From NCBI RefSeq assembly GCF_003990445.1, contig NZ_REEZ01000016.1:39498-103497 (forward strand): 64,000 nt of DNA, given 5' to 3'. Positions 1 through 21,766 of this stretch are shown piece after piece. Position 1 is the stretch's first letter. Each line of letters begins with the position of its first letter. A model generated the notes under the pieces. The model had not been told where the DNA came from and ran no database searches. It was given only the letters and a program-made list of their open reading frames with translations. Source of the stretch: Pararhodobacter zhoushanensis (lineage in GTDB: Bacteria > Pseudomonadota > Alphaproteobacteria > Rhodobacterales > Rhodobacteraceae). A program made the translations under genes and the position numbers.

Positions 1-2656
1 CCAGATTGATTTCCTGGGACTTCAAGAGGTCGACCTCAAAGACGACATCATCCCAGTCGATCGTTGACTCAACCTGCTCGGCGCTCGTCTTTTCACGGCG
101 AAGCCAATCCCGGATGTCATTGTAGATCGAACGGTAGTCCTGGACCTTTCGGTCAGCAGGCATCTCGATGCTCTTGAGCCCGTCAACGTCATCATCACTC
201 AAATGATGCCGCTCCTTGAACGCTCTCACCGCTTCGGCGTCACTCTCGTCAATCTCCTGAAGCTCTCTTAGGCTGGAGAACTCATCATAATTCTGAAGGG
301 TATTCTCAACGCGGAGATACTCGCCGAACAGCTTCGCAAAGGCCTTCTTGTCCGCTTCCTTTTCGATGGCGGCGGGGTTCGGGAAACGCTCTTCCAGCTC
401 ACGGACGACATCGACAAAGCCTCGCCGCGCCTCGCCTGTCGTCTGGTCCGTAAAACCTTCCATGTATTCTGAGTAACTCTTCTCCAGAACGACGTTCTTG
501 GTATTGGCGTTGCCGAAGAGTGTGATCGCCTTGACGGTCGCCTCTTCCAGGTCGCGGAAGGTAACGATGTTGCCGAAAGACTTGGTCGCATCATAAATGC
601 GGTTGGTGCGGGAGTAGGCTTGTATAAGGCCGTGAAAACGCAGGTTCTTGTCCACGAACAGCGTGTTCAGAGTCGGCGCGTCAAAGCCGGTCAGGAACAT
701 GCCAACCACAATGAGCAAGTCGACTTCCTTGGACTTCACCCGTTTCGCCAGATCCCGGTAATAATTCTGGAAGCCTTTGCTATCGACGCTGAAATTCGTT
801 CGGAAATAGGCGTTGTAGTCCGCGATGGCGACGTTCAGGAATTCCTTGGCGCTGCTGTTCAGCGCCGAAACCTCAAAACTCTCGTCAGGAATGTCGCCAA
901 TCGCATCCTGTTCTTCGTTGGCCGCGAATGAAAAGATGGTCGCGATCTTCAAGGGCTTGTCGCTACCGTCCTGCAGCGTATTCAGCTTTTCATAATAGAG
1001 CTTGGCTGCATCAACGCTGCTCACCGCGAACATGGCGTTGAAGCCCTTATTGTCTCCATAGAGACGATGCGTCTTGCGGCGGAAGTTTTCGAGAATGTAC
1101 TGGGAAATCTCGGCGATCCGTTCGGGGTGCTGAAGAGCTTGCCGGTTTTCGGCGGCGGTCAGCTTCTTTTCGTCCTGTTCGGTTTCGATCGCTTTGAACT
1201 GCGGGCGCACATCGTTGTAATCGACCTTGAACTTCAGCACCTTCTCGTCGCGGATCGCGTCGGTGATCACATAAGAATGAAGTTCGCTTCCGAATACGCT
1301 GGCCGTCGTCTCCGCACCCGAAGCATTTTCCGGAAAGATCGGTGTGCCGGTGAAGCCGAACTGGCAGAACTGCTTGAACTTCCGATTGAGGTTCTTCTGT
1401 GCCTCACCAAACTGGCTGCGATGGCACTCGTCGAAAATGAAGACGACGCGCTGGGTGTAGACCGGCAGGTCGCCCTCGCTCTTCATCAAATTGTTGAGCT
1501 TCTGGATGGTCGTGACGATGATCCTGTTGTCGTCCTTGGAGAGGTTCTGCTTCAACCCGGCTGTACTGTCCGATCCATTGACGCTGTCTGGCGAGAAGCG
1601 CTGATACTCCTTCATCGTTTGGAAATCGAGGTCCTTGCGGTCGACCACGAAAAAGACCTTGTCGATGAAATCGAGTTCAGTGGCGAGGCGGGCCGCCTTG
1701 AAGCTGGTCAGCGTCTTGCCTGAGCCCGTAGTGTGCCAGACATATCCGCCGCTTTCCGGCTTTCTAAGCGTCTTGCCTTCGAACGAGCTTCTGATCTTTC
1801 GTAAGATTCGTTCCGTCGCCGCGATCTGATAGGGGCGCATCACCAGCAGCGTGTCGCTGACATCAAAGACGGAATAATCGAGCAACACCTTCAACAGTGT
1901 GCGCTTCTCGAAGAAGGTCGCCGTAAAATCCTTTAGGTCCCGGATCAGGCTGTTATCCGCCTGCGCCCAGTTCATCGTGAAGTCGAAACTGTTCTTGTCG
2001 CGCTTGGTCGTATTGGCGAAGTAGCGCGTATCCGTGCCGTTCGAGATCACGAAGATCTGGAGGTACTTGAAGAGCGAACTGTCCGAGTTGAAGCTCTCCT
2101 TGCTATAACGGTGGATCTGGTTGAACGCCTCCCGAATGGCGACGCCGCGCTTTTTCAGCTCGACCTGCACCAGCGGCAGCCCGTTCACAAGGATGGTCAC
2201 ATCGTAGCGGTTCGCGTGGGTTCCTGCCTGCTCGAACTGCTTGATGACCTGTATCTTGTTGCGGCAGACTTGACGCTTATCGACGAGATAGATGTTCTGA
2301 ATCCTGCCGTCATCGAAGACGAAATCGAAGATGTAGTCGTCATGGAGTTTGCGGGCTTTGTCCGTCACGCTGTCGCTGGGCTTGTCCAAATAGGTTTCGA
2401 CGAAGCGCGCCCACTCCTTATCGGTAAACTGAACATCATTGAGCGCCTGCAGCTGCACGCGCACATTGGCCAGCATGGCGTCTGTTGATTTCAGGTCAGG
2501 CAGATGCTCATAGCCCTGATTGCGCAGGTCCTGAACAAGCTCGCGCTCCAGGTCGCCCTCAGACTGATAGCTGTCAGCCGCCTCCCAGGCGCGCACGTAC
2601 TTGTCCAGAACGATAAAGCGATTGGTCTCGGCGATCGGGGTCGTCTGCTCAGGCAT
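1..2656 (-). CDS. hsdR: Type I restriction enzyme R subunit (partial, C-terminus off the window)
   Basis: This is the motor and nuclease subunit of a type I restriction enzyme; it cuts DNA after ATP-driven translocation. The frame is open from an ATG at 2656 to the left edge, giving about 885 residues of a family that usually exceeds 1000. An N-terminal RecB-type nuclease region shows VQVELKKRG near residue 160. The helicase core has Walker [11 protein letters not shown] near residue 310 and a DECH box ([13 protein letters not shown]) near 410. The start ATG overlaps the end of prrC by 8 nt, so translation is coupled. Base composition is lower in GC than the chromosomal genes to the right, consistent with transfer. 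The missing C-terminus normally contacts the methylase. The family call is secure; intactness beyond the edge cannot be judged. Confidence 0.95.
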
Positions 2657-3809
2657 TCGGGGCCTCCTCCTGCCAATAGCTGTAATTGTTGCGCAAATGC
2701 TCCAGCAGGAGCTTCACCGTCTGCTTTTCCTGCGGCGACGGCTCGGCAATGGCCTCGCTAGAGAGCGTACTATGGCTCGTAAACTGAATGATGCGGTTCA
2801 GGTAAAGTTGCTGGTCGCCCGGCAGCAACTCTGACCATCGCGGATAGCCCAGAAAGTTCGATGTCTTTTCATAGAGATTGCGCAGCAGTGTGAAATGATA
2901 GCGCTCGATCTTGTCCGCCGCGATTGCCTCCTCCAGCGTCCGCTTGAGGTAAAGGTGATACGAAAAGCTCTGGTTGGAATCGCCATTCTTCGCGTCTAGC
3001 TCAAAGGTTCCATCCTCCAGCCTTTTCAGCATGTAGCAGGTTTTTTTCCCCAACTCATTGAACAGCACGTTAAAGAACAGCGGGCTGTGGGTCGTGATGA
3101 TGAACTTCAGGCCGTTCACGCTTTCACTTCTCTTGATGAGGTCGGCGACATCGACGGCAAGCTGAATGAGATGGTTCTCGTCGAGCGAGCTAACCGGGTC
3201 ATCGATGAATATGTATTCGAGATCGTTGAACTGATCCGTCTCGCGCTCATCGACTTCGGCGACATTGCGGGTGCTGATGACCTGATCCAGCAGGCAATAA
3301 AAAATGCTCCAGATGAAGTTGCTTTCTTCACCCTTCGATATTTTGAGACGTTCTGGGTTGGTCGCCGGATCTTGCCCCAGTGTGAAGATCACTTCGGAAA
3401 ATGCCGGGACGGCAATCTCTTTGTTGTCCTTGTCCCTGGTTTTGTATTCCTCATTGAAGCGGGGCGTAAGGTTCTGCTGGGTGTAACGCTGAAACACGGT
3501 AATCACATTGAGGTCGAGCCCAAGATCTTCGAAGGCGGACCTGGTGAACGCATTCGGCTGAATGCAAAGCTTCCGCTCGGTATCGCCGGTCAGATCATTG
3601 TCCCAGTAAAAGAGGTCTTCGGTGAAGGCGTTGTAGTAGAGCACCTTAGGGCGATAATCGTCGTCCCGTTCTTCGGTCTTCGGGTCGATTAGCTCTCTGA
3701 ATGCGCGGGAGAGACGGGTCTTTCCAGACGCATTGAACGCGTAAATCAGCTGCACCTTTTTATCGGCGTCCCGCAGCAACTGCGCGATCTCGGTCAGCGT
3801 GTGTCCCAT
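2649..3809 (-). CDS. prrC: PrrC-type tRNA-Lys anticodon nuclease
   Basis: This 386-residue protein matches E. coli PrrC (about 396 aa), the latent anticodon nuclease kept silent by a type IC restriction complex and released when a phage blocks restriction. The N-terminal ABC-type ATPase has a Walker A-like AFNASGKT (24-31), signature [10 protein letters not shown] (156-165), Walker B YIFIDDP (199-205), D-loop SSLD (207-210) and switch His241. The C-terminal nuclease half holds R310, E314 (RNLYE) and H346 (FTSHSTLS), which align at a constant offset of 10 with the E. coli triad R320/E324/H356 as I recall it. D277 (GDSNQSF) aligns with the reported anticodon-recognition D287. It sits between the methylase and hsdR, as in the E. 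coli prr locus. Its ATG abuts the hsdMS stop (TAAATG). Activity is inferred. Confidence 0.93.
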
Positions 3810-5981
3810 TTAAGTCGCCATGTCATCAGGTTTGGGGAAGCTTAGGAGCAGATCGCGGTAGTGGGTGTACTGTTTTTTGCGGGCACTAAGCTCGGCACTA
3901 AGCTCGGCGGCAAGCGCGGCGAAGCTGTCGAGTATCCGAACAATCTCCCCCTGTATCGCCAACGACTTCTCTGGATCACTGGGGCATGGGATGGGGACGG
4001 TGATCTGAACCAAATTCCCTTTCGTCAGCTTTGCCCGCCCTTTGCTCGACAAGAAGGGAAGGAAGTTGGTCGTCGTCAAACAGTGGAAAAGGAACCGCGT
4101 ATCGACCGCGTCCGTTCCTCGCACAACATGAACATGGTTGTTGGCCCAGAATTTACCGGAGACATATTGGATTGAGTAGTTCTCGAGACTTGCTGAACCG
4201 TCCTCAGCGATGAGGACGTATTCGCCGTTGTGGGTGTGGCCATCGACGTAATCCTGAATGTTGTTAGCGCCGTAGTAGGGGATATCTCCAGCTGCACGCA
4301 ATGATGCTTTGACCGGCCTGCGGGCAGTATTGGCAAGCTCGAAATAGTTGTCATCACCGAGCGGCACCCACGCCACCTCAGCCCCATTCAGCAGCTTATC
4401 CAGAAAACCCGCCGCACTCATGGACTGAGCCTCGTTGGCGTCAATCTCCACAATGATGGCGTCGATATTAGTGCGTAGCTGATCGATCTTCTCAACCTTG
4501 GCTTTGATCTCCTCATTCAGCTCACCAATGTTGACGATCTCGCGCGTATCACGCGGCTCGACATAGGAGCTGACCGAGAGGTTGTAGCCCCGCTCCACGA
4601 CGGTCTCATACGGGACCGAGGCGGCGACATGGTCGACGTCTTGCTTGCTATCAAAAATCTCCATCACCCGCCCGATGTGTTCGTCCGTCATCAGATTGGT
4701 GTTGGTGGCCTTTTTGAAAAACTCCTCTCCCGTAGCGTCGATGAATTGGATGGCCGTGTCGGTCTTGTTCTTCGCGAGGACCAGGATCGTCACCGCGATG
4801 GTCGTTCCGTAGAAAAGGTTGGAGGCGAGCGCAATCACCGTCTCGACATAGTTGTTGTCGACCAGATACTGCCGGATCTTCTTCTCCGCGCCGTCGCGAT
4901 AGAAGATCCCCGGAAAGCAGACAATCGCCGCGCGACCCTTGGCTGACAGGTAACTCAGGGCATGGAGTACAAAGGCAAAATCCGCCTTTGATTTGGGCGC
5001 CAGCACGCCAGCGGGCGCGAAGCGGTCATCATTGATCAGCGTCGGGTCATCCGAACCGATCCATTTCACCGAATATGGCGGATTGGAGACGATGGCATCA
5101 AAGGGCTTGTCGTCCTGAAAGTGGGGCTGGGTGAGCGTGTCACCGCGCTGGATATTGAACTTGTCGTAATTGATGTTGTGCAGGAACATGTTCATGCGGG
5201 CAAGGTTGTAGGTCGTGTGGTTGATCTCCTGCCCGAAAAAGCCCTCTTCGATGATGTGTGCGTCGAAGTGCTTCTTGGCTTGCAGCAGCAGGGAACCGGA
5301 GCCGCAGGCCGGGTCGTAAATCTTGTTGACTTTTTCCTGCCCATGCATGGCGAGCTGCGCAATGAGCTTCGAGACATGTTGTGGGGTAAAAAATTCCCCG
5401 CCGGACTTGCCCGCATTGGCGGCGTAGTTCGAGATCAGGAATTCATAGGCATCGCCGAACAGATCAATCTGACTGTTGTGGAAGTCTCCGAAATCCAGCT
5501 CCGCAACGCGCTTCAACACTTTTGCCAAGCGGCTATTCTTTTCCGTGACTGTGTTGCCCAGGCGCGTGCTGGTCGTGTCAAAGTCGGCGAACAGGCCCTT
5601 GATGTCCAGCTCAGAGGGGTAGCCATTGGCGGAGGATTCGATCGCCGCAAAAACCTGAGCGAGATCGGTGTTGAGGCTATCATTGGTGTTAGCGTTCTTC
5701 GCGACATTGGCGAACAGCTGGCTGGGATAGATGAAATAGCCCTTGGTCTTGATGGCGTCGTCCTTGATGTCATCGGTGACGACATTGTCGGGAAGACCAG
5801 CGTAGTTGATGCTCTCGTCATCCGCCGCGATGTAAGCAGCGAAATTCTCGCTGATAAAGCGGTAAAAGAGCGTGCCGAGGACATATTGTTTGAAGTCCCA
5901 GCCATCGACTGAGCCGCGCACATCGTTCGCAATGTCCCAGATTTTCCGTTGTAGCGCCGCACGTTGTTCCTGGCCGGTCAT
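3810..5981 (-). CDS. hsdM: Fused type I methylase and single-TRD specificity subunit (HsdM-HsdS)
   Basis: A 723-residue fusion. Residues 1 to about 520 are a type I N6-adenine methylase: HsdM N-terminal domain, AdoMet motif DPACGSG (223-229) and catalytic NPPY (300-303). Residues of about 535 to 670 form one target-recognition domain of the HsdS type, followed by a helical spacer (676-712) like an HsdS conserved region. HsdS normally carries two such domains in a separate protein of about 400 aa; only one is present here and no separate hsdS occurs in the window. Two fused chains should therefore supply the two half-sites, predicting a palindromic bipartite target. The ATG overlaps the stop of the upstream HTH gene (ATGA), and the TAA touches the prrC start. 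Methylation protects host DNA and, with HsdR, holds PrrC inactive. Confidence 0.92.
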
Positions 5982-6196
5982 CTCTCTTTGTCCTTCTTCG
6001 GACTGGCTTCACGCTCGATCCAGTCCTCAATATCCACGCGCCGAAACCGCCAAGTGCCGCCAACCTTGAAGCCGGGCAACTTGCTTTCGGCCGCAAGGCG
6101 GTAGGCGGTTTTCTTGTTGATCCTGAGATAGTCGGCGACTTCATCAATGGTCATGATGTCAGCTGCCATGCGAAGCACTTTCCGAAAATCATCCAT
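5978..6196 (-). CDS. Excisionase/MerR-type helix-turn-helix protein
   Basis: A 72-residue protein made almost entirely of one winged-HTH domain of the excisionase family ([21 protein letters not shown], then a [14 protein letters not shown] wing). It is the first gene of the restriction operon and overlaps hsdMS by ATGA. Genes of this type often precede hsdM and probably act as a controller or a DNA-binding accessory. Alternative in-frame starts exist at the internal ATGs MAADIM and MTIDEV, and no strong ribosome site settles the choice. It could instead be an excisionase of a larger island, but no cognate integrase lies beside it. Confidence 0.8.
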
Positions 6197-6625: not shown

Positions 6626-7027
6626 TTAAATCTTCGGGTCGGGCACAAACTGCAAGCTCTGCCCGGCAAGGATTGCCTCGGCATTCCACGCGGTCTGCAT
6701 CGGCCCAGCGACCGAGAACACGCTCATGCTCTGCGCGGCAGCGATCGCGCTGCCCTCGGTGATGCCCGGCGTATCACCCCAGTTGACCTGCGGCATGGCA
6801 TCGCCAGCCGCCATCAGCCGCCACATGGTTTCCAGTTCCGCCGTGGCGCTCATGTCCTGCATCAGGCGATGCGTCGGCGCGGTCTCAAACGTTGCGCCAG
6901 GATCTTTCGCGCAGACCTTCCGGCCCCGCGTGAAGCTGTTCGGTCCTCTGCCCATTGCGTCAAAGACGATGGACAGCTTCTCGGCCTGAGCCTCTGGCAC
7001 GATGATGATGCACGGTACATTGGCCAT
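6626..7027 (-). CDS. Hypothetical phage protein, last gene of the late operon
   Basis: A 133-residue protein starting one base after the LamG gene ends, so it is cotranscribed with it. It is soluble, begins MANVPCIIIVPEAQAEKL, and shows no membrane segment or motif I recognise. Its place directly after the fibre-like gene suggests an accessory or chaperone of the tip module, which is an inference from position only. It is the last phage-type gene before the restriction locus. Confidence 0.65.
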   Translation of the reverse strand: MANVPCIIIVPEAQAEKLSIVFDAMGRGPNSFTRGRKVCAKDPGATFETAPTHRLMQDMSATAELETMWRLMAAGDAMPQVNWGDTPGITEGSAIAAAQSMSVFSVAGPMQTAWNAEAILAGQSLQFVPDPKI

Positions 7028-7028
7028 G

Positions 7029-8171
7029 TCAGGCGCTCCAATAGTTGTGAAGTTTCAGGATTTCGGTGGGGGTGAGCACGCGGTCGCTCGCGAGAGCGTC
7101 AGAGATAAGCCCAGAGAAGAGGAATAGCGGGGTTCCATTGATGTTCAGTCCGCCCAGCGTCACCCCAAGTCCATTGGACGTAGGGCCACTCTGGGGGGCA
7201 CTGTAAACTTCCACCCCGTCAGCATAGAGGTTCACTGTGGACCCATCCCACGTGATCTCCCCGGTGCGCCAGCCGTTACCAAGGTCCGGCCCGCCAAAGA
7301 TGATGCTCGGTGAATTTTCGCCAACACCCCCAGATATTTGCCCATTCGCGTGCCTGGTGAGATAGGCGCGATTGTTGGCACCTGATGAGCCTATGATGCC
7401 TCGAGTTCCCGTCGCCCCTTGCGAGGCCTTGAAACGCGCCGCCAGCGTTCCGGCAACGCCCGGTTTGAACGTAGTCTCCAGCCGGTCATCGCTGCCGTCG
7501 AAAGACAGACCTGTGCTCTGGTATGTCGGGCGCGCACCCGCTGTGGGCTGTACGCCGTGGTAGCCGGGGATTTCACGCACCGAGATGTTGCCGATCTCGA
7601 CGTACTGCCCGGCTTCGGACGGCACGGCGATGCAGCCGACATACATGGTTTCCACCGTCGCGACGAACACCTCATCAAAATCAAACGAGGAAGAAAGCAA
7701 CGACCCTGACGGGAGAGTCGCCAAGTGACCAACGCGATTTGAGATGGCGCCGACAGTGCCCGCAAAGCCAGTCTGGGTCACACGATAGAAGTTACCGACC
7801 ACAAGACCGGTGATCTCTTGAGAAACCCCCATTGCCGCCGTCGACGCTGCGGTAACGCGGATGCGCCCGCCTGCCGAGGTGATAACCTCCGATCCCCGCG
7901 CCGCCAACCAACCGTCGACCGCCGCGCCGTCGCCGTTGATCACCCTTTCCGGCCCAGGCTCCGGACCCGGTGTCTTGCTCAGAACCAGACCGGCTGGATT
8001 TCCCGGCGCGGAAACATTCGTGATGCCCGCGCTTGTCAGGAAAAGCGTGCTCAGGTCGCGGTGGGCGAACAAAAGGCCCGTGTCGGACGGGCCGAAAATG
8101 GCGGCAGGTGTCCAGCGGCTGCGCGACCCGAATGGCGATCGCGGATCGAAGGGCGATGCGCGGTTACGCAT
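7029..8171 (-). CDS. LamG/concanavalin-like tail-fibre-type protein
   Basis: A 380-residue protein. The C-terminal part (about 220-380) has the pattern of a concanavalin/LamG jelly roll (GLSFDGSDDRLETTF, WRTGEITWDGSTVNLYADG, SDRVLTPTEILKLHNYW), a domain often used for glycan binding at phage tail tips. A middle region (about 75-200) looks like a second beta-sandwich (GAAVDGW, VGNFYRVTQTG, QYVEIGNISVREI). I chose the ATG at 8171, which overlaps the upstream stop by 8 nt; the longer frame to 8342 only extends antisense to the gene before it and has unlikely composition. In other phages such a gene follows tail genes; here it follows the portal gene almost directly. Confidence 0.72.
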   Translation of the reverse strand: MRNRASPFDPRSPFGSRSRWTPAAIFGPSDTGLLFAHRDLSTLFLTSAGITNVSAPGNPAGLVLSKTPGPEPGPERVINGDGAAVDGWLAARGSEVITSAGGRIRVTAASTAAMGVSQEITGLVVGNFYRVTQTGFAGTVGAISNRVGHLATLPSGSLLSSSFDFDEVFVATVETMYVGCIAVPSEAGQYVEIGNISVREIPGYHGVQPTAGARPTYQSTGLSFDGSDDRLETTFKPGVAGTLAARFKASQGATGTRGIIGSSGANNRAYLTRHANGQISGGVGENSPSIIFGGPDLGNGWRTGEITWDGSTVNLYADGVEVYSAPQSGPTSNGLGVTLGGLNINGTPLFLFSGLISDALASDRVLTPTEILKLHNYWSA

Positions 8172-8451
8172 GGCTGACCGAGATAGCCCCCAGCCCGGTT
8201 GCTGATCTCGCCCACACGCGTTTAGCCATCGGCAGCCCGGGGAAGAGGTCAGAGAGCGCCTCATTCCGGGCACCGGTTCCGCAGGGATAGAACCATTCGG
8301 CGAAGTCCCCGGTGGGCTCCGTGCCGCCTGTCGTTGCGGCAATCATCACCTGCGCCCCCGAGATAACCTCGAAGGAAATCGAAGCGACATCGCTCGATGT
8401 CAGCTCGGTCCACTCACCCTCGGGCAGGCTCAGCTTGGTATTACGCGGCAT
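8164..8451 (-). CDS. Small phage protein upstream of the fibre gene
   Basis: A 95-residue protein beginning MPRNTKLSLPEGEWTELTSSD and ending ALSDLFPGLPMAKRVWARSATGLGAISVSHA. The composition suggests a compact beta-rich fold, of a kind seen beside phage tail-tip genes; I do not assign a function. The chosen ATG (8451) lies inside the portal stop region, an 11-nt overlap that argues for translational coupling. The frame remains open upstream to 8508, but that extension is buried in the portal gene. It is the only gene between portal and fibre, where capsid and tail genes would normally be. Confidence 0.7.
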   Translation of the reverse strand: MPRNTKLSLPEGEWTELTSSDVASISFEVISGAQVMIAATTGGTEPTGDFAEWFYPCGTGARNEALSDLFPGLPMAKRVWARSATGLGAISVSHA

Positions 8452-10087
8452 TCTTTGCGCCTCCTTTTTTCTGTCCGCTGGCAGTATCGCCGTCGTTCGC
8501 AGGCGCATCGGCTTGATCAGCAGGCGCGGGCGGTGCGGTGCCCTTCCGGGTCAGAGCAGCCTCGATGAACTGGTCAGGGATCCCGGCCGCGCGCATCTGC
8601 TCGACGTCCTGCGCGATCTCGCGCCAGACAGTTTGAGGGTCTCGCCCCTGGTCCCGGATGTAAGACCCAAAGGACCGCATCAAGTTGTCTTTCTCGGTTA
8701 CTGCGGCGTCGACGTCAGCCCGCGGGTCGATCCACGACCAGCGCCGGGCCTGCCACAAAACTGACCGGTATTTCTCCAGGCGCTCGGGCTTCAGCGTTCC
8801 GCCGGCTGCAGTCTTGATCCGTCCGGCCAGCAATGCCCGCGGCAACCAGGCCAGGAACACCGGCTCGACTAGCATTTCGATCAGCCATTCCTGAAGACCC
8901 TTCCAGTGCTCGCGCTCGTCAAGCGCGCCTTGCCGGATCGACGAGAAGTTGACCCCCTCGAGATCATTCGCGAGGTTGTTATAGGCCACGCCCATGCCAA
9001 CCGAGATGCCGCGAAGCATTTCCTTTCTGAACGGCGCGAGCTCGCCCAGAGGATAGGTCGGGTGGTTCGGGACAGGCTCGACACCCGCGGGAAGCTCCTG
9101 CCACACGCCCGCCTCAACATCGACCTCGATCGAGGCGTCATCTTCTTCACTTTCAGGGCCATAGCCCTCAGCCCATTTGAAGAATCCGCCCTTCGCTGCT
9201 GACACCCGGGCGTTGACCAGCGCCGCCTGTTCGTATCCGGCCAACATGCGCATGCGCCATAGCGCGGTGACCATCCAGGGCAGGCCGCGCTTTTGACCCA
9301 CCATGTCCTCGACAAACCCATGAAGGATTTCAGACGCGGGAACCGTTACAAAGGATCGCCCGCCGAACGCGTAGTCCGCATCGCGCTCATCCGTGGTCGT
9401 GAACAGGTAGGCGATCGGGCGGCCATAGCGGTTGAATCTGATGCCGTGCCGGATGAACGTCCCATCTTGGCGGCGCTCTTCATCGTAATCGACCGGGCAT
9501 CGCTGCGGATCCAGCACCTGCAACGCGAAACCCCATGGACCCGCCTCTGCGCCAAAGATCGTGCGCACCATGAACTCGCCGTCCCGTGCCGCCGTGGCGG
9601 CTGCAGACTTCTGGATTGCGACGAATGAGCGCCGGCCAGTGACGTCAGCATTTTCGCGACGGCACCAGTCGCGCCAAGCTTGCTCGATCGCATCGTTCGC
9701 TTCGGTGTCGAGCGTTCCGCCCTGGTCGCGCGCCTGTGCCTGCAGCCGGATACCGACAGGACCCACCACGTTCTGCGTCACGGTCCGCAGGAAGCCACGG
9801 CCATAATCGTTGTTCAGTGCCTGGTCACGCGACCGCGCCACAACGGCGCGCTGGTTGTTTCGGATCACCGTGTCGGCTGTTACCGGCGTTGCGGTCCAGC
9901 TGGCCGACAGCCGATCTGTTGCACCGGCATCGAGGTTCCGTGCCGCAGCTCTCGCGGAAGCCATCACAGCCCGCTGACGCGCTCGCCGCACGATCCCGCC
10001 AGATTGCGGCGCAGCCGTGATGATCGGCTCAGCGCGCGCAGCGCCGGTATTACCCGCCTCTGGCGCGCCTTTCCCAAATCCGAACAT
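8441..10087 (-). CDS. Phage portal protein, lambda gpB family
   Basis: A 548-residue portal of the lambda type, the dodecameric ring through which terminase pumps DNA. Recognisable stretches include RDQALNNDYGRGFLRTVTQNVVGP (early; shortened here to its core LNNDYGRGFLRTV), VLDPQRCPVDYDE, a GRSFVTVPASEILHGF segment, ALWRMRMLAGYEQAALVNAR and the late VNFSSIRQGALDEREHWK. The tail is low-complexity and Ala/Gly/Lys rich. The ATG overlaps the preceding stop as TGATG. In lambda-like phages the next gene encodes the capsid protease or scaffold; here the next gene is a 95-aa protein. Confidence 0.93.
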   Translation of the reverse strand: MFGFGKGAPEAGNTGAARAEPIITAAPQSGGIVRRARQRAVMASARAAARNLDAGATDRLSASWTATPVTADTVIRNNQRAVVARSRDQALNNDYGRGFLRTVTQNVVGPVGIRLQAQARDQGGTLDTEANDAIEQAWRDWCRRENADVTGRRSFVAIQKSAAATAARDGEFMVRTIFGAEAGPWGFALQVLDPQRCPVDYDEERRQDGTFIRHGIRFNRYGRPIAYLFTTTDERDADYAFGGRSFVTVPASEILHGFVEDMVGQKRGLPWMVTALWRMRMLAGYEQAALVNARVSAAKGGFFKWAEGYGPESEEDDASIEVDVEAGVWQELPAGVEPVPNHPTYPLGELAPFRKEMLRGISVGMGVAYNNLANDLEGVNFSSIRQGALDEREHWKGLQEWLIEMLVEPVFLAWLPRALLAGRIKTAAGGTLKPERLEKYRSVLWQARRWSWIDPRADVDAAVTEKDNLMRSFGSYIRDQGRDPQTVWREIAQDVEQMRAAGIPDQFIEAALTRKGTAPPAPADQADAPANDGDTASGQKKGGAKNAA

Positions 10088-10620
10088 CAGAACCTCGCCA
10101 ATATTTGCCGCCCGAGCAGCGATTGCCCGTGCCGCGCCGCCTTCTGCCGGCGCACCTCGTCGCGATAGCGGGATCTGAGCAGCAAGAGGTCGGCAACGGT
10201 CATCCTCGTGATCGACCGGCCGTTGATCTGATAGGCCTGCTGGTCTTTCGTCGCGCGCCCCTCGATCACAGCCTCAATGGCAACGAGAACGCGTTCGGCA
10301 TGCGACCGACCGTCATGGCCGGATGCAATCACAGACAGGTCAGCCTCGAGCGTGAGCTGACCCTCGTCGACAAGCGCGACCTCGGCGCCCTGAACCGCGC
10401 GCAGCGACCACCAGTAGGCTCCGGGTGCCCAGCTGGACGTCATCGCTGCATCAGCGGCAATCAGATGTGAGGATCCGCTGGCAGTCGAAGTCAGATCGAT
10501 CTGGGCCGGGCCGCGCAGGTAGAGCGCGAGCGACCACTCTGGTGCCCGGTATGCGGTCAGGGTGATGCTGATCGAAAGAGTCACACCTGCGTAAATCGTG
10601 CCCGGGATGTTTCCCGCCAT
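10087..10620 (-). CDS. gpW-like head-tail joining candidate
   Basis: A 177-residue protein between terminase and portal, the position of lambda gpW. The last 80 residues (ERVLVAIEAVIEGRATKDQQ, then QINGRSITRMTVADLLLLRSRYRDEV) resemble the short alpha/beta gpW pattern. The first 100 residues are a beta-rich domain (TLSISITLTAYRAPEWSLALYL) not found in lambda gpW. It might therefore be a fusion of a small beta domain with a gpW-type module. It starts 3 nt after the terminase gene stops and overlaps the portal start. The function is inferred from position and weak similarity. Confidence 0.6.
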   Translation of the reverse strand: MAGNIPGTIYAGVTLSISITLTAYRAPEWSLALYLRGPAQIDLTSTASGSSHLIAADAAMTSSWAPGAYWWSLRAVQGAEVALVDEGQLTLEADLSVIASGHDGRSHAERVLVAIEAVIEGRATKDQQAYQINGRSITRMTVADLLLLRSRYRDEVRRQKAARHGQSLLGRQILARF

Positions 10621-10623
10621 GCC

Positions 10624-12621
10624 TCACCACCTGTTCACCCAGCTCGCCCCGCGCTTCGGGCGTTTCTGGCGTGCGCCTTTGGCGGCAGACTGCGCTGACG
10701 GTGGCTCTTGGTCCTCTGGCGGTATGCCCGCCTGTGCCGTCTGCGCAGCAGCAGAGGCCCGAAGCCGCGCACGCGGTGCGCTGATCGTTTCCACCGGTGC
10801 TGGCGTCGGTTCGTCGTCGTCGACATCCGTCGCCAGGCGCTTCGCCAGGCGCGGCAGATTCGGGTTAATGACCTTCAACGCGGCATAGGCGTAGACACGG
10901 CAGTCAAGCGCTTCGTTCCTGTCACGCGTCTTGTGCCAAGAGCGCACGGCAAATCCGCGCAGATGTTTGGTGACAAGCTTCTCCGCTGTCGCCATCGCGA
11001 ACCATTCGGCGTCACGATCATCGGGAACATGGCAGTAACCCGGGCCGAGGGCGGTTTGGGCGAGCCGCCGCGCAACGATTAGTTTCGCCTCGTCGACGCC
11101 GACCGAGAACAGGTCGACCTTCCGCGCCCGCTGGCCGGATTTTTTCTTGCTCGGTGCACTGACGATCGGGCGGCCCCAACCTTCGACCCCTTTGATCGCG
11201 AAGAGGCGGCGCCCGGTCTTGCCTCTGGCATAGTCATAGGCGGCTTGTGTGTAGCCGCCGCGCCCCCCGGTATCGAGGCAGGTTGCCGAGATCGGCAACT
11301 GCGCGCCGGACTGGTGCAGCCAGGTGCGCGACAAATGGGCGTCCAGATCATCCCAAACGTCGCCGTGAAGCGGATCGCCCCAGAGCACGGTATAGTCGAC
11401 AGACCAGCTTTCTTCCCCCAGCCCCCAAGCCACGGTTTCGAGCTCGAGGCGATCCTCTTGCATATCAACACCGCAGGTCAGGACTAGCCCGCCGGCGGGC
11501 ACCGGTGCCGCGAAGCGTTCCGCGCGGGCAATCAGGTCCGAGGATTTCAGCTGCTCGCCAGCCTCTTCCCAGGTCTCAGCCAAACTCACGTTGACGAAGG
11601 TCTGAAGGTCATTCGCCGCCTTTTTGTCGAGGAAGGACTGCACGATGTCGCGCAGTTTTCGCATCGTCGAGTAGAGCTCGTTAAGATGATAGGAAGCATG
11701 ACCTGTGAACGGCCGCTCGGCCTTCCAACCTGCTCCGACCTTCTCAGCGTCCCTGATCGCGGCGACGCGTTCCCCATCGGACCATACCGTGCCGCAGTCC
11801 TCGGCCTCGCAAAGATACCGCGCGCTGGACGGCAAATGCTCACCGCCTGCGCCCTTGTCCCAGACCACCTGCGCCCAGCGCAGCGTTTGGTGGTGGCCGC
11901 AGTGCGGGCAGGCGACATGGAACCTGCGACCATCGCCTTGCTCGAACGCGCTCTCGATCCAGCTCGCACCTTTGATTGTCGGCGTGCTTATCTCGAGCAG
12001 CTTGCGCTGATCTCCAAAGGTTGCCGCGCGCTGCCACAAAAGCCCGACCGGATGGCCTTCGGCTGTCCGATCGTAGCCGTCGGTCTCATCACACACGATG
12101 AAAGGGGCTGAGCGTCCCCGCATGGTCTTTGGACTGCCAGACCAGCTGAACATCAGGAACCCTCCCGGATAGGATTTCATGCGCTGGTTGTTTACCCCGT
12201 CACGCCCGCGGGGCTTTGCAATCAGCTCCTGGAGCTCGTCGCTCGCCTCGACCAACGGGTTAAACTTGGTTTCCAGCCAGGTGTGCAGGTCACCTTGGCT
12301 CGGCTGCATCATGATCTGCGACGTAGGGTTCTGAGCTATGCGATACGCCTGCGCGCACAGCGCGAGCATTGTTTTGCCGACTTGAGCGCCCCACATGAGC
12401 GTAATGCGCTGGCAGTCAGGATCCGCCGTCATATCCAAGGGCTCGCGCTGATAGGGCGCGTTGTCGAACCGGATCAGGCCAGGGATGGCGTTGCCGATCG
12501 GCGCCTTAACTGATTGCTCGGCCCACTCAGTGGGACGCAGGTCAGGAGGTGGCCGCAAGTGCCGCTGCGCACGAGAGACCGCAAAGATGATCTCAGACGC
12601 GTTGCCAAACGGCGCGCTCAC
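10624..12621 (-). CDS. Terminase large subunit, GpA family
   Basis: A 665-residue packaging ATPase and nuclease of the lambda gpA family. The ATPase half has LMWGAQVGKTMLAL as Walker A and FIVCDETDGYDR as Walker B. A zinc-ribbon-like insertion follows (CPHCGHH, then CEAEDCG). The C-terminal nuclease half contains LVLTCGVDMQEDRLELE and CLDTGGRGGYT acidic positions. It starts with GTG at 12621, overlapping the small-subunit stop (GTGA). The C-terminus is a basic, Pro-rich tail. It forms the packaging motor together with the neighbouring portal and small subunit; length and motifs are typical, so the gene appears intact. Confidence 0.95.
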   Translation of the reverse strand: MSAPFGNASEIIFAVSRAQRHLRPPPDLRPTEWAEQSVKAPIGNAIPGLIRFDNAPYQREPLDMTADPDCQRITLMWGAQVGKTMLALCAQAYRIAQNPTSQIMMQPSQGDLHTWLETKFNPLVEASDELQELIAKPRGRDGVNNQRMKSYPGGFLMFSWSGSPKTMRGRSAPFIVCDETDGYDRTAEGHPVGLLWQRAATFGDQRKLLEISTPTIKGASWIESAFEQGDGRRFHVACPHCGHHQTLRWAQVVWDKGAGGEHLPSSARYLCEAEDCGTVWSDGERVAAIRDAEKVGAGWKAERPFTGHASYHLNELYSTMRKLRDIVQSFLDKKAANDLQTFVNVSLAETWEEAGEQLKSSDLIARAERFAAPVPAGGLVLTCGVDMQEDRLELETVAWGLGEESWSVDYTVLWGDPLHGDVWDDLDAHLSRTWLHQSGAQLPISATCLDTGGRGGYTQAAYDYARGKTGRRLFAIKGVEGWGRPIVSAPSKKKSGQRARKVDLFSVGVDEAKLIVARRLAQTALGPGYCHVPDDRDAEWFAMATAEKLVTKHLRGFAVRSWHKTRDRNEALDCRVYAYAALKVINPNLPRLAKRLATDVDDDEPTPAPVETISAPRARLRASAAAQTAQAGIPPEDQEPPSAQSAAKGARQKRPKRGASWVNRW

Positions 12622-13154
12622 CCCGTGTCGTCCCCGTCATCGTCTTCGTCTTCAAGGTCGTCCGCGCTGAGCAGCTGCGAGTCCGCCAGAGCCTCGAGAG
12701 CCCGGTCGACCTCTTCCTCGAGGACGTGACGGATTCGCGCTTCGTCTTTCTCACCGACGATCATCCTTGGCACGCGCGACGCGATGGTGCGCATGTTTGC
12801 GCGGACCTCGGCGAAGGCCTTGACCATGGCGCTCTCAAACTGCGCAACCGGCGCGACGTCGGCTTTCTCACGAGCAAACGCAAGCTCTTCGCGCCCGGTC
12901 ATCGCTGCCAAGCGGCGACGCTTCAGTTCCTGTTCCGAGGCGGTGACGTTGCCGGCTGCCTCATCCCGCGCCTTGAGCTCTCGCCAGGTAGCAACTGCGG
13001 CTGTGTTGAATTCGTATTCGCGCCCCTTGCCGCCGCGTTTCTCAACAGGGCAGCCGTTCCGGATCCAGTGATCGATAGTCGGCATAGCGACGCCAAAGAG
13101 CTCAGCGAGCCCCGTCCTGTTGACTATCCTGCCCGTCTGCCTCCGGTTCGTCAT
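12618..13154 (-). CDS. Terminase small subunit, Nu1 type
   Basis: A 178-residue DNA-recognition subunit. The N-terminus is a winged HTH (NRTGLAELFGVAMPTIDHWIRNG) as in lambda Nu1, which binds the cos site; the middle is helical and the C-terminus is an acidic tail (DDLEDEDDDGDDTG). It overlaps the large subunit by GTGA. The gene begins a packaging block after a 208-nt gap, where a cos site would be expected. Confidence 0.9.
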   Translation of the reverse strand: MTNRRQTGRIVNRTGLAELFGVAMPTIDHWIRNGCPVEKRGGKGREYEFNTAAVATWRELKARDEAAGNVTASEQELKRRRLAAMTGREELAFAREKADVAPVAQFESAMVKAFAEVRANMRTIASRVPRMIVGEKDEARIRHVLEEEVDRALEALADSQLLSADDLEDEDDDGDDTG

Positions 13155-13584: not shown

Positions 13585-13738
13585 CAAGCCTCCGTCTGGT
13601 GTTGCGGTATCCCTCGGCCCGGTCAGCTCGATCGAGAGCGTCGTCACGCTCTTGCGTGCGCAGACGCAACAGGAAGCACAGAGCCGCGAACGCAACCGCC
13701 GATGCGGCCGATAGCCAAAGGCGCAGACGCGCAATCAT
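13508..13738 (-). CDS. Rz-like inner-membrane spanin
   Basis: A 76-residue protein with one N-terminal membrane segment (IARLRLWLSAASAVAFAALC, about 3-24) and a charged, periplasmic, coiled-coil-prone tail rich in Arg and Asp. This is the i-spanin design. Its ATG overlaps the endolysin stop as TGATG; a GTG one codon earlier is an alternative. The 3' part contains the Rz1-like gene in another frame. It is shorter than lambda Rz, so function rests on topology and order. Confidence 0.7.
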   Translation of the reverse strand: MIARLRLWLSAASAVAFAALCFLLRLRTQERDDALDRADRAEGYRNTRRRLDDAPDLRGDPAAARDWLRDRTGRRS

Positions 13739-14550
13739 CACTGCACGCCATCAGCGAGCCGCTTGATGCGGTCGCGCATGATCCACAGCCCCAGCAGCAC
13801 GACAGCCCCGGCGAATGCCAAGGCGAAGATCTGGGCAGTGCCGTCCAGTGCGCCAACGCCCGCCACGGCCGCACCAGCCCCGGTCACGACCTGCGCAACA
13901 GACCCTCTGAACGCAGCGCCGTCGGTGGGGCGCTCGGGCTCTGGCTCGGCGCGACCGGCAGCCACGTGCGGGTCAGGGATGTGCGCGGCAGCGCCGGGCA
14001 GGGCGGTGGCCATGACAATCGCCCGGTCGATGACACCAGTGTCGGCATCATCCCAATCAGGACGCTCGCCCATCACGCGACGGCGCCAGCCGACGCCAAA
14101 AACACCAAACCGCGACAGGGTGCGCAGCCATGCCATGCGGTCACGGCAGAGGGCAGGGATCAGGGATTGCGGGTCAGCTCTCTCGACAGCATTGAGTGTC
14201 ACCTCGCCAATCACGCCGTCGGCAGTGACACCAACGGCGCGCTGCAGGAACTGTACAGCGCGACGCGGCCCGCTGTTCACAGCGAAATCGAATACCGCAT
14301 AGTCGACGCCAGCAGGCAGGGCGTCGCCCTGGATCGCGTCCCAGTATTGCCGACGATAGATCTCGGTCACTTCGGCGTCGGTGATCTCGCGCACTGACCT
14401 AAGGGCAAGACCCTTGCGGGCGCGGAACGCATCATAGACGCGGCGCGTCACGCCCCGGTTGGTCTCGCCGCCCGGATCGTCGGGGTGGTTTGCATAGCCG
14501 CCCTCGTGCGCCAGCACCCACCTCAAGGCCAGATTGAAGCTATCGCGCAT
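13738..14550 (-). CDS. Endolysin, GH108 N-acetylmuramidase with C-terminal membrane segment
   Basis: A 270-residue peptidoglycan hydrolase. The N-terminal GH108 domain has the catalytic Glu16 in HEGGYANHPDDPGG followed by ETNRGVT. A peptidoglycan-binding type 3 domain occupies about 90-170 (FDFAVNSGPRRAVQFLQRAVG, VTADGVIGEVTLNAV; shown in parts). A linker and one predicted transmembrane helix (about 232-254, FALAFAGAVVLLGLWIM) end the protein. A C-terminal anchor is unusual for a classic soluble endolysin and may restrain it until the holin fires. The gene sits between the holin-like and spanin genes. Confidence 0.9.
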   Translation of the reverse strand: MRDSFNLALRWVLAHEGGYANHPDDPGGETNRGVTRRVYDAFRARKGLALRSVREITDAEVTEIYRRQYWDAIQGDALPAGVDYAVFDFAVNSGPRRAVQFLQRAVGVTADGVIGEVTLNAVERADPQSLIPALCRDRMAWLRTLSRFGVFGVGWRRRVMGERPDWDDADTGVIDRAIVMATALPGAAAHIPDPHVAAGRAEPEPERPTDGAAFRGSVAQVVTGAGAAVAGVGALDGTAQIFALAFAGAVVLLGLWIMRDRIKRLADGVQ

Positions 14551-14552
14551 GG

Positions 14553-14795
14553 TCAGCCCTTCTTGTCGAGCAGGACATTCTCAATTCTGATTACCGACGA
14601 TCTGACATCGTCGATGGCGGCGCGGTCCTCTTTGCGCTGCTCATTGCGGTGTGCGAGGTCACGCTCGAGAAGCTCGATTTGGCGCTGATTTGTCAGCACC
14701 CGTCGCACGAGCCAGGCACATGCTGTGACGATCGCTGCCCCAGCTGCTGCAAGGATTGAGATGATGATCTGCTCGATCCGCTCGTATTGCGTCAC
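14553..14795 (-). CDS. Holin-like small membrane protein
   Basis: An 80-residue protein with one strong membrane helix (about 8-30, IIISILAAAGAAIVTACAWLV), then a charged amphipathic region (QIELLERDLAHRNEQRKEDR). Position immediately before the endolysin suggests a holin or antiholin; the single segment and long charged tail are also compatible with a membrane-anchored accessory. It starts with GTG overlapping the upstream stop (GTGA). Confidence 0.6.
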   Translation of the reverse strand: MTQYERIEQIIISILAAAGAAIVTACAWLVRRVLTNQRQIELLERDLAHRNEQRKEDRAAIDDVRSSVIRIENVLLDKKG

Positions 14796-15247
14796 ACTGC
14801 CACCTGCCTGCCCTTCACCACCTTTGTGGTCTCGGTCTGGCCCGCTACCGTGCCTTTTTCCTCTGGCGGGTTCCCCTCAGCCGGATATCTGAGGATCTCG
14901 CGCACGCGATAGGTAGAGAGCCCCACCGCCTCAGCGATCTCATCCAGGGCTTTGCCGTCAGCGCGCATGCGGGCGATCTCGCGATTGCGGAACTCACGCA
15001 CGACGAAACCACAGTTGGCGGGCTGGAGGATTGCGCCGCCGAAGTGCCGCCGCATCCGTTCCGCGTCATCGTGGCCCAGACATTGGATCAACCAGTGATC
15101 CTGCGGCATGCGCTTCGGGACGTAGAGCACCCGCCGCCATGGCCGTGAGCCAGATGTGGGCAGCATACCAATTAGATACAGCGCCCGAGCCCGCCCGATG
15201 ATGTCAGCGATCTCCTGGGCACTCGACGGGAGTCCTGCAGAGCTCAT
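14792..15247 (-). CDS. Phage HTH protein, possible late-gene activator
   Basis: A 151-residue protein. The C-terminal half holds a helix-turn-helix (REIARMRADGKALDEIAEAV followed by GLSTYRVREILRY), similar in form to Mor/C-type activators. The N-terminal half (IADIIGRARALYLIGML, then RPWRRVLYVPKRM) is basic. It is located between the replication and lysis blocks, where a late activator would sit. It overlaps both neighbours by four bases. Role inferred from fold and place. Confidence 0.6.
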   Translation of the reverse strand: MSSAGLPSSAQEIADIIGRARALYLIGMLPTSGSRPWRRVLYVPKRMPQDHWLIQCLGHDDAERMRRHFGGAILQPANCGFVVREFRNREIARMRADGKALDEIAEAVGLSTYRVREILRYPAEGNPPEEKGTVAGQTETTKVVKGRQVAV

Positions 15248-15360
15248 CGGGCGAACCTGTCGGTGGCACTGCCCCCGGCCGACCGCCCGGTGCCGCGCTG
15301 GCGGCCGCGAAAGGCCTCAGCAGAGGGCGTGCGGATGCTGAGATCATCGACCACGATCAA
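15244..15360 (-). CDS. Possible 38-aa coupled micro-ORF
   Basis: A TTG at 15360 overlaps the stop of the initiator gene (TTGA), and the frame ends in a TGA that overlaps the next ATG. It encodes a 38-residue basic peptide (starts M-IVVDDLSIRTPSAEAFRG). The evidence is only the unbroken chain of overlapping stop-start junctions; the rare start codon and short length keep this tentative. A longer frame through the initiator gene is rejected as antisense-like composition. Confidence 0.35.
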   Translation of the reverse strand: MIVVDDLSIRTPSAEAFRGRQRGTGRSAGGSATDRFAR

Positions 15361-16295
15361 ACACCCCGCTTGCGCAGCTGCGCCTCGGTGACGTGACCGC
15401 GCGCCAGCAGTGCGCCTCGAACCTCGCTCGAAATGGCGTTCGGCGCGATGTAGCCGCTGCCGGTCAGGCGCTTGCGCCAGAACTCGACCCGCTCGTCGAG
15501 AGAGGCGCGGGGGCTCTCGGCACCGCGGGATCGCCTCGAGCTCTTGGACCCGCTGGCATTCTTCGCCGCTCGGGCCATCGCAGGGCCCAGGGCGCGCGGC
15601 CCCTGCGGCAAGTCGGGCTTCTCGAGGGCGAAGGCCCGGGCTGTGGCAATCATTTGAGCCTCGGTCAGGCCCAGCGCCGTCCATGCCTCGCGATACCGGC
15701 CATCCCGCGCTTCGATCGGCCAGTATCCACTCTCAGCGAGCGACGGCTCACCGAAAGCCTCGGCCATCGACTTCACAAAATCCACATTCAGCCGAGCGCG
15801 CTCGCGCGCATCGTCTTCGTCGTTTACAGGTTCCCTTAAAGGTTCCCTTACAGGGTTAGTGTCCAGATTCTGGACACGGCTCTGCGGTAAATCTGGACAC
15901 GGCTCGGGGTCCAATCTGGACACGGCTCCGTGTCCGGTTTCTGGACACGGGTCAGCCTCGTGTTCTTTTTCCGTTCGTGTTTCGCCGTGTCCAGTTTCTG
16001 GACACGGGCTTTGTGCGAACTCAGGCTCGAACCCCAAAATATAGCGCGTGGGCCGCTGCCGGCGCGTGGTGGGATCGACCGATCGGACACGCTGGATGTG
16101 TCCCTTTTCCTCGAGCCGCGCGAGGTTGTCATTCACCGACGCACGCGACATGCACGAGGTCTCTGCCAGATAGGACTGGCTCGGGAAACACCCGTTCCGG
16201 GGGTTGTGACAGTCCGCCAGGCACAAGAGCAGCAGCTTCTCGGCCGGGCGCAGGTCGCCCAAGGCAAAGGCCCAGTTCGTCGCAATATGGCTCAT
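15357..16295 (-). CDS. O-type replication initiator with internal origin
   Basis: A 312-residue protein with an N-terminal winged HTH (GDLRPAEKLLLLCLADCHNP, then SQSYLAETSCMSRASVNDNLARLEEKGHIQRV in parts), the arrangement of phage O-type initiators. A low-complexity middle (about 95-150) contains repeated CPETGHG and CPDL motifs because the DNA beneath is a set of palindromic repeats. The C-terminal half is helical and basic. Lambda O likewise contains its own iterons within the gene. No helicase gene lies beside it, so the element probably recruits host DnaB. Overlaps with neighbours are ATGA and TTGA. Confidence 0.75.
   Translation of the reverse strand: MSHIATNWAFALGDLRPAEKLLLLCLADCHNPRNGCFPSQSYLAETSCMSRASVNDNLARLEEKGHIQRVRSVDPTTRRQRPTRYILGFEPEFAQSPCPETGHGETRTEKEHEADPCPETGHGAVSRLDPEPCPDLPQSRVQNLDTNPVREPLREPVNDEDDARERARLNVDFVKSMAEAFGEPSLAESGYWPIEARDGRYREAWTALGLTEAQMIATARAFALEKPDLPQGPRALGPAMARAAKNASGSKSSRRSRGAESPRASLDERVEFWRKRLTGSGYIAPNAISSEVRGALLARGHVTEAQLRKRGV
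15859..16005. repeat. Iteron array with palindromic core, candidate phage origin
   Basis: Sites built on GTGTCCAGA-N-TCTGGACAC occur at 15859-15877 (perfect), 15882-15900 (right half good), 15905-15923 (right half good), 15930-15948 and 15987-16005 (near perfect). The first four are spaced 23, 23 and 25 bp, roughly two helical turns. A looser GGACAC/GTGTCC pair follows at 16085-16103. All lie within the initiator gene, as in lambda. Origin function is inferred. Confidence 0.75.
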
Positions 16296-18348: not shown

Positions 18349-18549
18349 TCAGGAAGCGGCACGGAGCGGGGGATTTTCCCGCATGTAGGCTCGAACACGG
18401 TCACCGGTCTCAAAGCGAGGGCTGGATTTACCGTCTTTCCAGTCTCGCCACTGGCCGTGGTTTGCGCCGATTGCCAGCTTCAAGAGCCTTTGAGGCGAGG
18501 TGCCACACTGCGCACAGTAGGCTTCGATGTCTGAGATGAGCTGTTCCAT
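18349..18549 (-). CDS. Cro-like HTH protein, first gene of leftward operon
   Basis: A 66-residue protein with a compact HTH (AQCGTSPQRLLKLAIGANHG, QWRDWKDGKSSPRF), transcribed leftward from the control region shared with the S24 repressor. Size, place and divergent arrangement are those of a Cro analogue. The start ATG lies just downstream of an operator at 18562-18577, so the repressor should silence it in the integrated state. Confidence 0.7.
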   Translation of the reverse strand: MEQLISDIEAYCAQCGTSPQRLLKLAIGANHGQWRDWKDGKSSPRFETGDRVRAYMRENPPLRAAS

Positions 18550-18561
18550 AGAGGTCTTTAT

Positions 18562-18577
18562 GGGGGATTATTCCCCC
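18562..18577. promoter_or_regulatory. Left operator inside the leftward early promoter
   Basis: GGGGGATTATTCCCCC, five-G and five-C arms around an A/T centre. On the minus strand it overlaps a candidate promoter: TTGCGT as -35 and CATAAA or CCATAA as -10 about 17 nt later, immediately before the Cro-like gene. A weaker copy (AGGGGAAATCACCTCC) lies at 18586-18601. The same motif recurs at the right control region, so one repressor should control both. Confidence 0.7.
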
Positions 18578-18602
18578 GGTACGCAAGGGGAAATCACCTC
18601 CA

Positions 18603-18636
18603 TTACACGAGCGCCGCTTGAGGGTATATTTCCCCT
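18603..18636 (+). promoter_or_regulatory. Repressor maintenance promoter with operator over -10
   Basis: TTACAC (18603-18608) and TATATT (18625-18630) are separated by 16 nt. The -10 lies inside an operator-like AGGGTATATTTCCCCT (18621-18636). The expected transcription start (about 18637) coincides with the repressor ATG at 18638, implying a leaderless message and autoregulation. Confidence 0.6.
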
Positions 18637-18637
18637 C

Positions 18638-19273
18638 ATGGAAAAGCCCTTCAAGGATGCCCTGGAGTTTGCGATCGAGACGACCAAGCGGTCGCTTCGC
18701 AGTGTCGCTATCGATGCCGGGGTGTCATACGATCAGCTGAAGAGCCTCATGCAGGGCAAGGCTAAGTCGACGAATTTCGACGACGGCGTGAAAGTGGCCG
18801 CTGCCTTCGGCGTGTCGGTAGAGGATTTTCTTGCGGGCAATCTGACATTCGCAGGCCCTACCGTTGCGGTGGCAGGCTGTGTCGGGGCGGGCGCGTCTGT
18901 CGAGCTTGTTGATGCCTATGACAAGGGCGACGGATTATATCACGTAAGAACGCCCGAGGGTGTTAGTCCGCGCGGCATCGTTGCAGTAGAGGTGGCGGGC
19001 GATAGCATGTCCCCGGTCTACCAGCCTGGCACGGTCTTGTTCTACAGCCGTGATGTTGTTGGTGTCCCTACTGAGGCCATTGGCAAGATCTGCATCTGCG
19101 AAGACGAATCTGGCAAGGCATGGGTGAAGGTTGTGCGAGTGGGCCGCGAGGAGGGCACGTTCAGCATGATTTCCCTGAACCCCGAGGCAGGCAACATTCA
19201 TGGTGTACGCCTCAAGTGGGCGGCGCCGGTTAAGTTCAGCTTGCCGCCGGAATATGTGCAAAAGATTGAGTGA
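18638..19273 (+). CDS. CI-like S24 self-cleaving phage repressor
   Basis: A 211-residue lysogeny repressor. The N-terminal HTH (about 18-65, RSVAIDAGVSYDQLKSLMQG) binds DNA; the C-terminal LexA/S24 peptidase domain has Ser123 in VAGDSMSP and a Lys in the WVKVVRVG strand, with candidate Ala-Gly cleavage sites near 79-85 (VAGCVGAG). This predicts SOS induction through RecA. ATG 18638 is favoured: the domain begins there and a promoter is placed for a leaderless start, while the alternative ATG at 18560 would run through the operators. Its targets are the five G-run/C-run operators on both sides. Confidence 0.88.
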   Translation: MEKPFKDALEFAIETTKRSLRSVAIDAGVSYDQLKSLMQGKAKSTNFDDGVKVAAAFGVSVEDFLAGNLTFAGPTVAVAGCVGAGASVELVDAYDKGDGLYHVRTPEGVSPRGIVAVEVAGDSMSPVYQPGTVLFYSRDVVGVPTEAIGKICICEDESGKAWVKVVRVGREEGTFSMISLNPEAGNIHGVRLKWAAPVKFSLPPEYVQKIE

Positions 19274-21650: not shown

Positions 21651-21693
21651 TATTTGTTGGGGCATGGAACAGAACAGGACCGGAACGAGAACC

Positions 21694-21716: not shown

Positions 21717-21766
21717 CTGCCGAGCCCTTGCGCCCAACGCCCCAACGTGCTGAAAACGTTAGCAGT

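Follow-up and report, generated by a model that had tools for sequence, protein, structure and literature searches.

The window analyzed here, a stretch of 64,000 nucleotides from Pararhodobacter zhoushanensis (positions 39,498 to 103,497 of contig NZ_REEZ01000016.1, referred to below as C8), encodes the anticodon nuclease homologue PrrC within a type I restriction-modification (R-M) operon. We found that this operon lies inside a prophage integrated in a tRNA-Leu(UAA) gene and that its HsdM subunit is fused in frame to half of an HsdS subunit. We consider it probable, at roughly two chances in three, that a temperate phage carries here a type IC-like R-M operon with an intact PrrC guard as an exclusion module. 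A preliminary description of the window had recognized PrrC, its motifs and the type I R-M operon, all of which stood, but it had overlooked both the prophage location and the HsdM–half-HsdS fusion. Its further points, that T4 does not grow in this host and that the trigger peptide must differ, are conjectural. The novelty resides in these two features; the assembly is a modest variant and PrrC itself is ordinary.

PrrC and its restriction-modification operon

The prrC gene (2649–3809, minus strand, ATG start) encodes a 386-amino acid (aa) protein with an ABC nucleoside triphosphatase (NTPase) domain and an anticodon nuclease (ACNase) domain, as judged from the open reading frame (ORF) list, PADLOC, alignment and the ratio of nonsynonymous to synonymous substitution rates (dN/dS). 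In the profile search, the PADLOC model for PrrC covered residues 3–384 of 386 with E = 2.8e-141, far ahead of the runner-up family (E = 6.2e-13), bearing out the proposed identity. AAA_13 was the sole Pfam family over its cut-off, the NCBIfam profile search gave no match, and a sequence search of the Protein Data Bank (PDB) gave no convincing relative (best E = 0.52). When the protein was aligned with the 396-aa PrrC of the E. coli plasmid NZ_CP116245, R310, E314, H346 and D277 fell on R320, E324, H356 and D287 at a constant offset of 10, exactly as had been claimed. E. coli PrrC is reported to become inactive when R320, E324 or H356 is substituted (PMC3014915). All the ABC motifs were found as well, namely Walker A (FNASGKT), the signature (SKGEES), Walker B/D-loop and the switch residue His241, in agreement with the earlier view of an intact gene with ABC-type ATPase motifs. 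In the tRNA-recognition peptide (residues 284–294 in E. coli numbering, which include Asp287), 9 of 11 residues were the same as in the E. coli plasmid PrrC; a 15-residue "PrrC box" is named as a PrrC feature in PMC3014915.

To place the protein among its relatives, we assembled a set of 104 loci. A scan of genome contigs gave 502 pattern matches, 471 of which encode a relative, and the best 80 of these 471 were analyzed together with 2 plasmid loci, 1 locus from a genome of the same genus and 21 viral contigs (including L087, a copy of this prophage). The alignment comprised the window protein and 101 relatives; L087 was omitted as the same prophage, and L052 (one stop) and L107 (457 aa) were removed by a length and stop filter. 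The catalytic triad was kept in all 102 rows and D277 in 100, the remaining two rows having gaps at this position. The dN/dS values of prrC, calculated by the Nei–Gojobori method against ten relatives, ranged from 0.059 to 0.125, and by this measure the gene is under purifying selection. A decayed prrC is ruled out by these values and by the motifs that are intact in the alignment. We conclude that the window PrrC is an intact, ordinary member of its family and, by homology, probably a latent anticodon nuclease.

The gene order is hsdMS–prrC–hsdR, all on the minus strand. The hsdMS gene (3810–5981) encodes 723 aa, and hsdR, whose 5′ part occupies positions 1–2656 and overlaps the end of prrC by 8 bases, extends beyond the window to C8:39052 as an intact ORF of 1033 aa. 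Thus the HsdM, the HsdS domain and the complete HsdR expected of a type I operon were confirmed. HsdM carries the motifs DPACGSG and NPPY and HsdR carries GSGKT and DECH, from which methyltransferase and restriction activities are expected. The dN/dS values across hsdM (nine relatives) and hsdR (ten relatives), obtained by the same method, were 0.033–0.167. The EcoR124_C domain of HsdR fits the linkage to type IC systems that has been reported for PrrC genes (PMC3014915). Upstream of hsdMS, a 72-aa helix-turn-helix (HTH) protein that matches HTH_17 and is excisionase-like in its profile matches is encoded at 5978–6196 (minus strand), its stop overlapping the hsdMS start. Against MAD1, the regulator in the MADS defence system, it scored 78.8 bits, just below the cut-off of 80, and such an HTH gene also precedes hsdM in several relatives. 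From the HTH gene through hsdR the operon spans 6.6 kilobases (kb), with a G+C fraction of 0.54 versus 0.615 for the whole prophage.

The 723-aa protein consists of a full HsdM (TIGR00497, profile positions 1–515 of 515) followed by one Methylase_S domain. At the hsdM/hsdS junction, L009, L007, L005, L003 and L085 show stop and start codons overlapping as ATGA. The window has 16 extra nucleotides at this junction (4422–4437, minus strand), through which the hsdM and hsdS frames are joined by a short linker; the ATG that starts HsdS is at 4421. A single target recognition domain (TRD) is present in the HsdS part, whose C-terminal end resembles that of full-length HsdS proteins. Instead of the classical type I layout (M2S1R2, with a separate HsdM and a two-TRD HsdS), the operon thus shows a single M–S protein with one TRD and a separate HsdR. 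At the level of sequence this is the layout of Type IMS, a name proposed after an EcoKI M–S fusion for enzymes with an HsdM–HsdS fusion, one or two TRDs and a separate HsdR (PMC3510504). M and S matches were both present in 91 of the 104 loci: 84 had a full-length S, 5 had half-size S ORFs only (one ORF in L005 and L007, two in L021, L037 and L099), and 2 were fused, namely L087 and a Xanthomarina locus (L065). Twelve of the 104 loci had no M match in the examined stretch, and L107 had no S match. The separate half-S of L007 is 81% identical to that of the window. Engineered M–half-S fusions of a Staphylococcus type I enzyme are reported to be active methyltransferases that restrict DNA with HsdR and read a palindrome (PMC6158711), and NgoAV is described as a natural half-S system with a palindromic target (PMC3874165). 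The window hsdMS is a natural counterpart of the laboratory-made fusions, though not necessarily the first, as further natural cases may stand in REBASE; by analogy with the family, its target would be palindromic.

The prophage and the place of the operon within it

The prophage measures 42.4 kb and is bounded by a perfect direct repeat of 85 bp (C8:18877-18961 and C8:61222-61306). The right copy, the attachment (att) site at 21725–21809 of the window, overlaps the 5′ half of a tRNA-Leu(TAA) gene (21767–21852), and the left copy lies to the left of the window. The operon is located between these borders with phage genes on both sides, as would be expected of temperate-phage cargo. On its right, phage gene matches identified a lambda-type portal protein (8441–10087), a head-tail joining protein and the large and small terminase subunits (10087–13154), an endolysin (13738–14550), and a late transcriptional activator (14792–15247) with an O-like replication protein (15357–16295), all on the minus strand, followed on the plus strand by the prophage repressor (18527–19273) and a tyrosine integrase (20670–21650). 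To the left of the window (L082 and L083), on the same strand as the operon, are genes for a protease–capsid fusion, neck, baseplate, tail fibre, sheath, a tail tube or head-closure-type protein, tape measure and a gpD-like tail protein.

The operon therefore sits between the portal and capsid genes, which are 9.4 kb apart here. We examined this interval in viral contigs with a related capsid (63 contigs, 56 with a portal match, 55 after exclusion of this prophage, L108). The median portal–capsid gap was 175 bp; it was at most 1 kb in 49 contigs and longer than 1 kb in 6. No match to HsdMS, PrrC or HsdR was found in the examined stretches of the 62 other related-capsid loci. With six gaps longer than 1 kb, the place is thus variable in a few relatives too; of the four gaps longer than 2 kb, the three inspected (L109, L157 and L162) hold fibre- or lectin-like ORFs, judged by eye. 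In the window, three minus-strand ORFs of the phage region (6626–8508) separate the operon from the portal gene: they encode 133 aa (6626–7027), a laminin-G-like protein of 437 aa (7029–8342) and 114 aa (8164–8508). A truncated copy of the 133-aa gene lies downstream of hsdR (L082:16668-16937, minus strand; 69% identity over residues 60–133, one stop), and a third copy, 90% identical, is on contig C6 of the same genome. The presence of copies on both sides of the operon and on C6 suggests that recombination between prophages gave rise to this region. A search for repeats at the hsdR–capsid junction found none.

Three further observations were made near the prophage ends. A protein that combines a cold-shock domain with an Mrr-type restriction endonuclease domain, possibly the product of a second defence gene, is encoded near the left att site (L083:19211-19993, minus strand; C8:21211-21993). 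At the left end of the prophage, a protein with an HTH and an IrrE/ImmA-like peptidase (L082:323-1393, minus strand) resembles the spr1629 repressor/antitoxin family below the cut-off. A perfect 15-bp repeat is found beside each att copy (C8:19028-19042 and C8:61185-61199, the latter at 21688–21702 of the window), perhaps as integrase arm sites or by chance.

Related operons in bacteria, plasmids and phages

In 93 of the 104 loci, HsdS was encoded upstream and HsdR downstream within 1.5 kb of prrC, and several of the 11 remaining loci were interrupted by contig ends. The window PrrC is 98% identical to that of Paracoccus sp. M683 (L001), 97% to that of Alterinioella (L009) and 88% to that of a Zymomonas plasmid (L085). 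The search was extended to 40 further genomes taken as relatives, 18 from the same genus; a single one had a PrrC match, at 36%, which fits horizontal acquisition. An E. coli IncY replicon (L084) carries the operon with M and S separate and a phage-type terminase nearby, and two 110-kb replicons of Klebsiella (L221 and L222) also carry it with separate M and S. In the Zymomonas plasmid (L085:8001-9161) and the two Klebsiella replicons (L221:14001-15200 and L222:14001-15320), "AAA family ATPase" is the sole annotation of prrC.

A PrrC search of 50,697 phage records gave no match at E 1e-5, and 118 of these records matched the HsdMS protein, with 6 matches extending across 80% or more of the query. 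In the IMG/VR collection, 21 loci contained PrrC, one of them (L087) being this prophage or stemming from the same assembly. Twenty proteins from the flanks of seven IMG/VR loci (L090, L093, L097, L099, L104, L105 and L106) were tested against PHROGs. In L093 and L106 the operon had a phage methyltransferase/ParB-like gene on one side and an O-like replication gene on the other; an integrase was found near the operon in L105 and L097 and a transposase in L104, and the flanks of L090 and L099 contained no clear phage gene. A terminase match was obtained in L093, L094 and L106. PrrC on phage-plasmids (PMC11652158) and ABC-HEPN relatives of PrrC in prophages (PMC3710099) have already been published. 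Among the literature matches listed, none described a type I–PrrC operon in a phage head cluster, as judged from titles and the beginnings of abstracts.

Proposed function, alternatives and known systems

Our ARAGORN analysis of all 42 tRNA-model matches (41 elsewhere in the genome and 1 in the window) identified a single host tRNA-Lys gene with the anticodon TTT; CTT was not among the calls, in a list that is incomplete, as one end-of-contig fragment was uncalled and the list lacks tRNA-Ile and tRNA-Tyr. The anticodon loop of this tRNA-Lys is CTTTTAA, as in E. coli tRNA-Lys. A search for the anti-restriction protein ArdA gave no match in the own genome, and the 14 controls were equally without match, so that this negative carries no weight.

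In the EcoprrI model, the Hsd complex keeps PrrC latent; relief comes from the peptide Stp, involves GTP hydrolysis and also requires DNA carrying unmodified sites (PMC3014915). From the PrrC family we infer latency, triggering by anti-restriction and cleavage of tRNA-Lys for the present system. In the lysogen, the fused M–half-S protein would dimerize and methylate an interrupted palindrome and, as a symmetric (MS)2R2 enzyme with HsdR, would restrict unmodified invading DNA while PrrC is kept latent within the Hsd complex. If the anti-restriction factor of a competing phage disabled the enzyme, PrrC would be unmasked and would cut the anticodon loop of the host tRNA-Lys(UUU), on the pattern of the family 5′ of the wobble base, so that translation would stop and the infection would be aborted, presumably to the benefit of the prophage. 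A more speculative extension, to which we give little credence, is that the guard, being placed in the phage's own late cluster, acts both in the lysogen and during the phage's own lytic growth, where it would methylate progeny DNA and abort cells whose restriction enzyme comes under attack from a co-infecting phage.

Several points weigh against an exclusion module of this kind. The nuclease activity of PrrC is predicted by homology only. The AlphaFold2 model of PrrC (predicted local distance difference test score, pLDDT, 79.4; predicted template modelling score, pTM, 0.67) has a pLDDT below 50 at residues 277–281 and 346–353, which hold D277 and H346; the active site is for this reason not modelled, and the prediction speaks neither for nor against it. 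L087 is 100% identical to the window and may be the same assembly, and therefore cannot independently confirm the fusion or the structure of the prophage. Scans gave no sigma-70-like promoter adjoining the HTH gene and no terminator-like site after hsdR, and late transcription running through the operon could burden the phage.

One alternative is that the operon is an ordinary host-cell PrrC/type I defence whose prophage location is incidental, in a prophage that no longer forms particles and gains nothing from it. Consistent with this, the examined stretches of the close relatives in Paracoccus and Alterinioella contained no match to genes of this phage, and an insert of 9.4 kb within the late cluster could harm the phage. 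We nevertheless regard this as unlikely, because every gene examined for head, tail, lysis, regulation or integration is open, the att borders are perfect, and the operon is also present on other phage-like contigs. It is somewhat less likely still that PrrC is active but cuts another tRNA or responds to a trigger other than anti-restriction, such as DNA damage or dTTP. Substrates may vary among PrrC proteins, the recognition sequence being variable, and a high dTTP level can activate E. coli PrrC without Stp (PMC3014915); yet the recognition peptide shows just two differences in 11 positions against the E. coli plasmid PrrC, and D277 is kept.

The M–S fusion might also be an assembly or sequencing error, the real M and S being separate, as besides this prophage only one of the 91 assessable loci (L065) is fused and the IMG/VR copy may share the same assembly. 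This seems quite improbable, given that the fusion is due to 16 extra nucleotides rather than to a homopolymer slip, that the frame is open on both sides, and that Xanthomarina provides a second fused case. Finally, a non-nuclease ABC ATPase or an RloC is extremely unlikely here, although Pfam yields AAA_13 only. The PADLOC match to PrrC and the catalytic triad rule out the former; the latter is ruled out by the length of 386 aa and the lack of a CXXC motif, as RloC proteins have 658–897 aa (PMC2610378) with a zinc-hook/coiled-coil insert.

PrrC is the classic example of a protein that guards a restriction enzyme, and its presence in the head-gene module of an integrated temperate phage suggests that phages, too, use guard-type abortive infection as a weapon against one another. 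The natural M–half-S fusion raises the question of whether PrrC can stay latent on a symmetric two-chain type I enzyme.

The system most directly comparable is E. coli PrrC/EcoprrI (type IC; hsdM–hsdS–prrC–hsdR), with which the window operon shares the gene order, the PrrC length class, the NTPase motifs, the triad, the D287 equivalent and an EcoR124-type HsdR. In contrast to EcoprrI, the window system has HsdM and half HsdS as a single protein and is located within an integrated prophage. The engineered Staphylococcus M–half-S enzymes (PMC6158711) and the EcoKI Type IMS fusion (PMC3510504) have in common with the window an HsdM–HsdS fusion, a single TRD and a separate HsdR, with a palindromic target reported in the engineered case; they are described as laboratory-made and without PrrC, whereas the window fusion is natural and accompanied by PrrC. 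The PrrC operons of phage-plasmids and plasmids (PMC11652158; L084, L221 and L222) likewise reside on mobile, partly phage-like elements, but these are extrachromosomal and keep M and S separate. PARIS and the P2/P4 hotspots (PMC9122126) provide prophage-carried defence that is reported to respond to phage anti-restriction and to target tRNA-Lys (PMC12409349), as proposed here for PrrC; they involve other proteins at another place, and the E. coli P2 and P4 hotspots are said to lack type I R-M (PMC9122126). RloC, in turn, combines an ABC NTPase with a HEPN-type anticodon nuclease bearing the same triad (PMC2610378, PMC3710099), but it differs from the window PrrC in its greater size and zinc-hook insert, and it is described as rarely linked to type I R-M.

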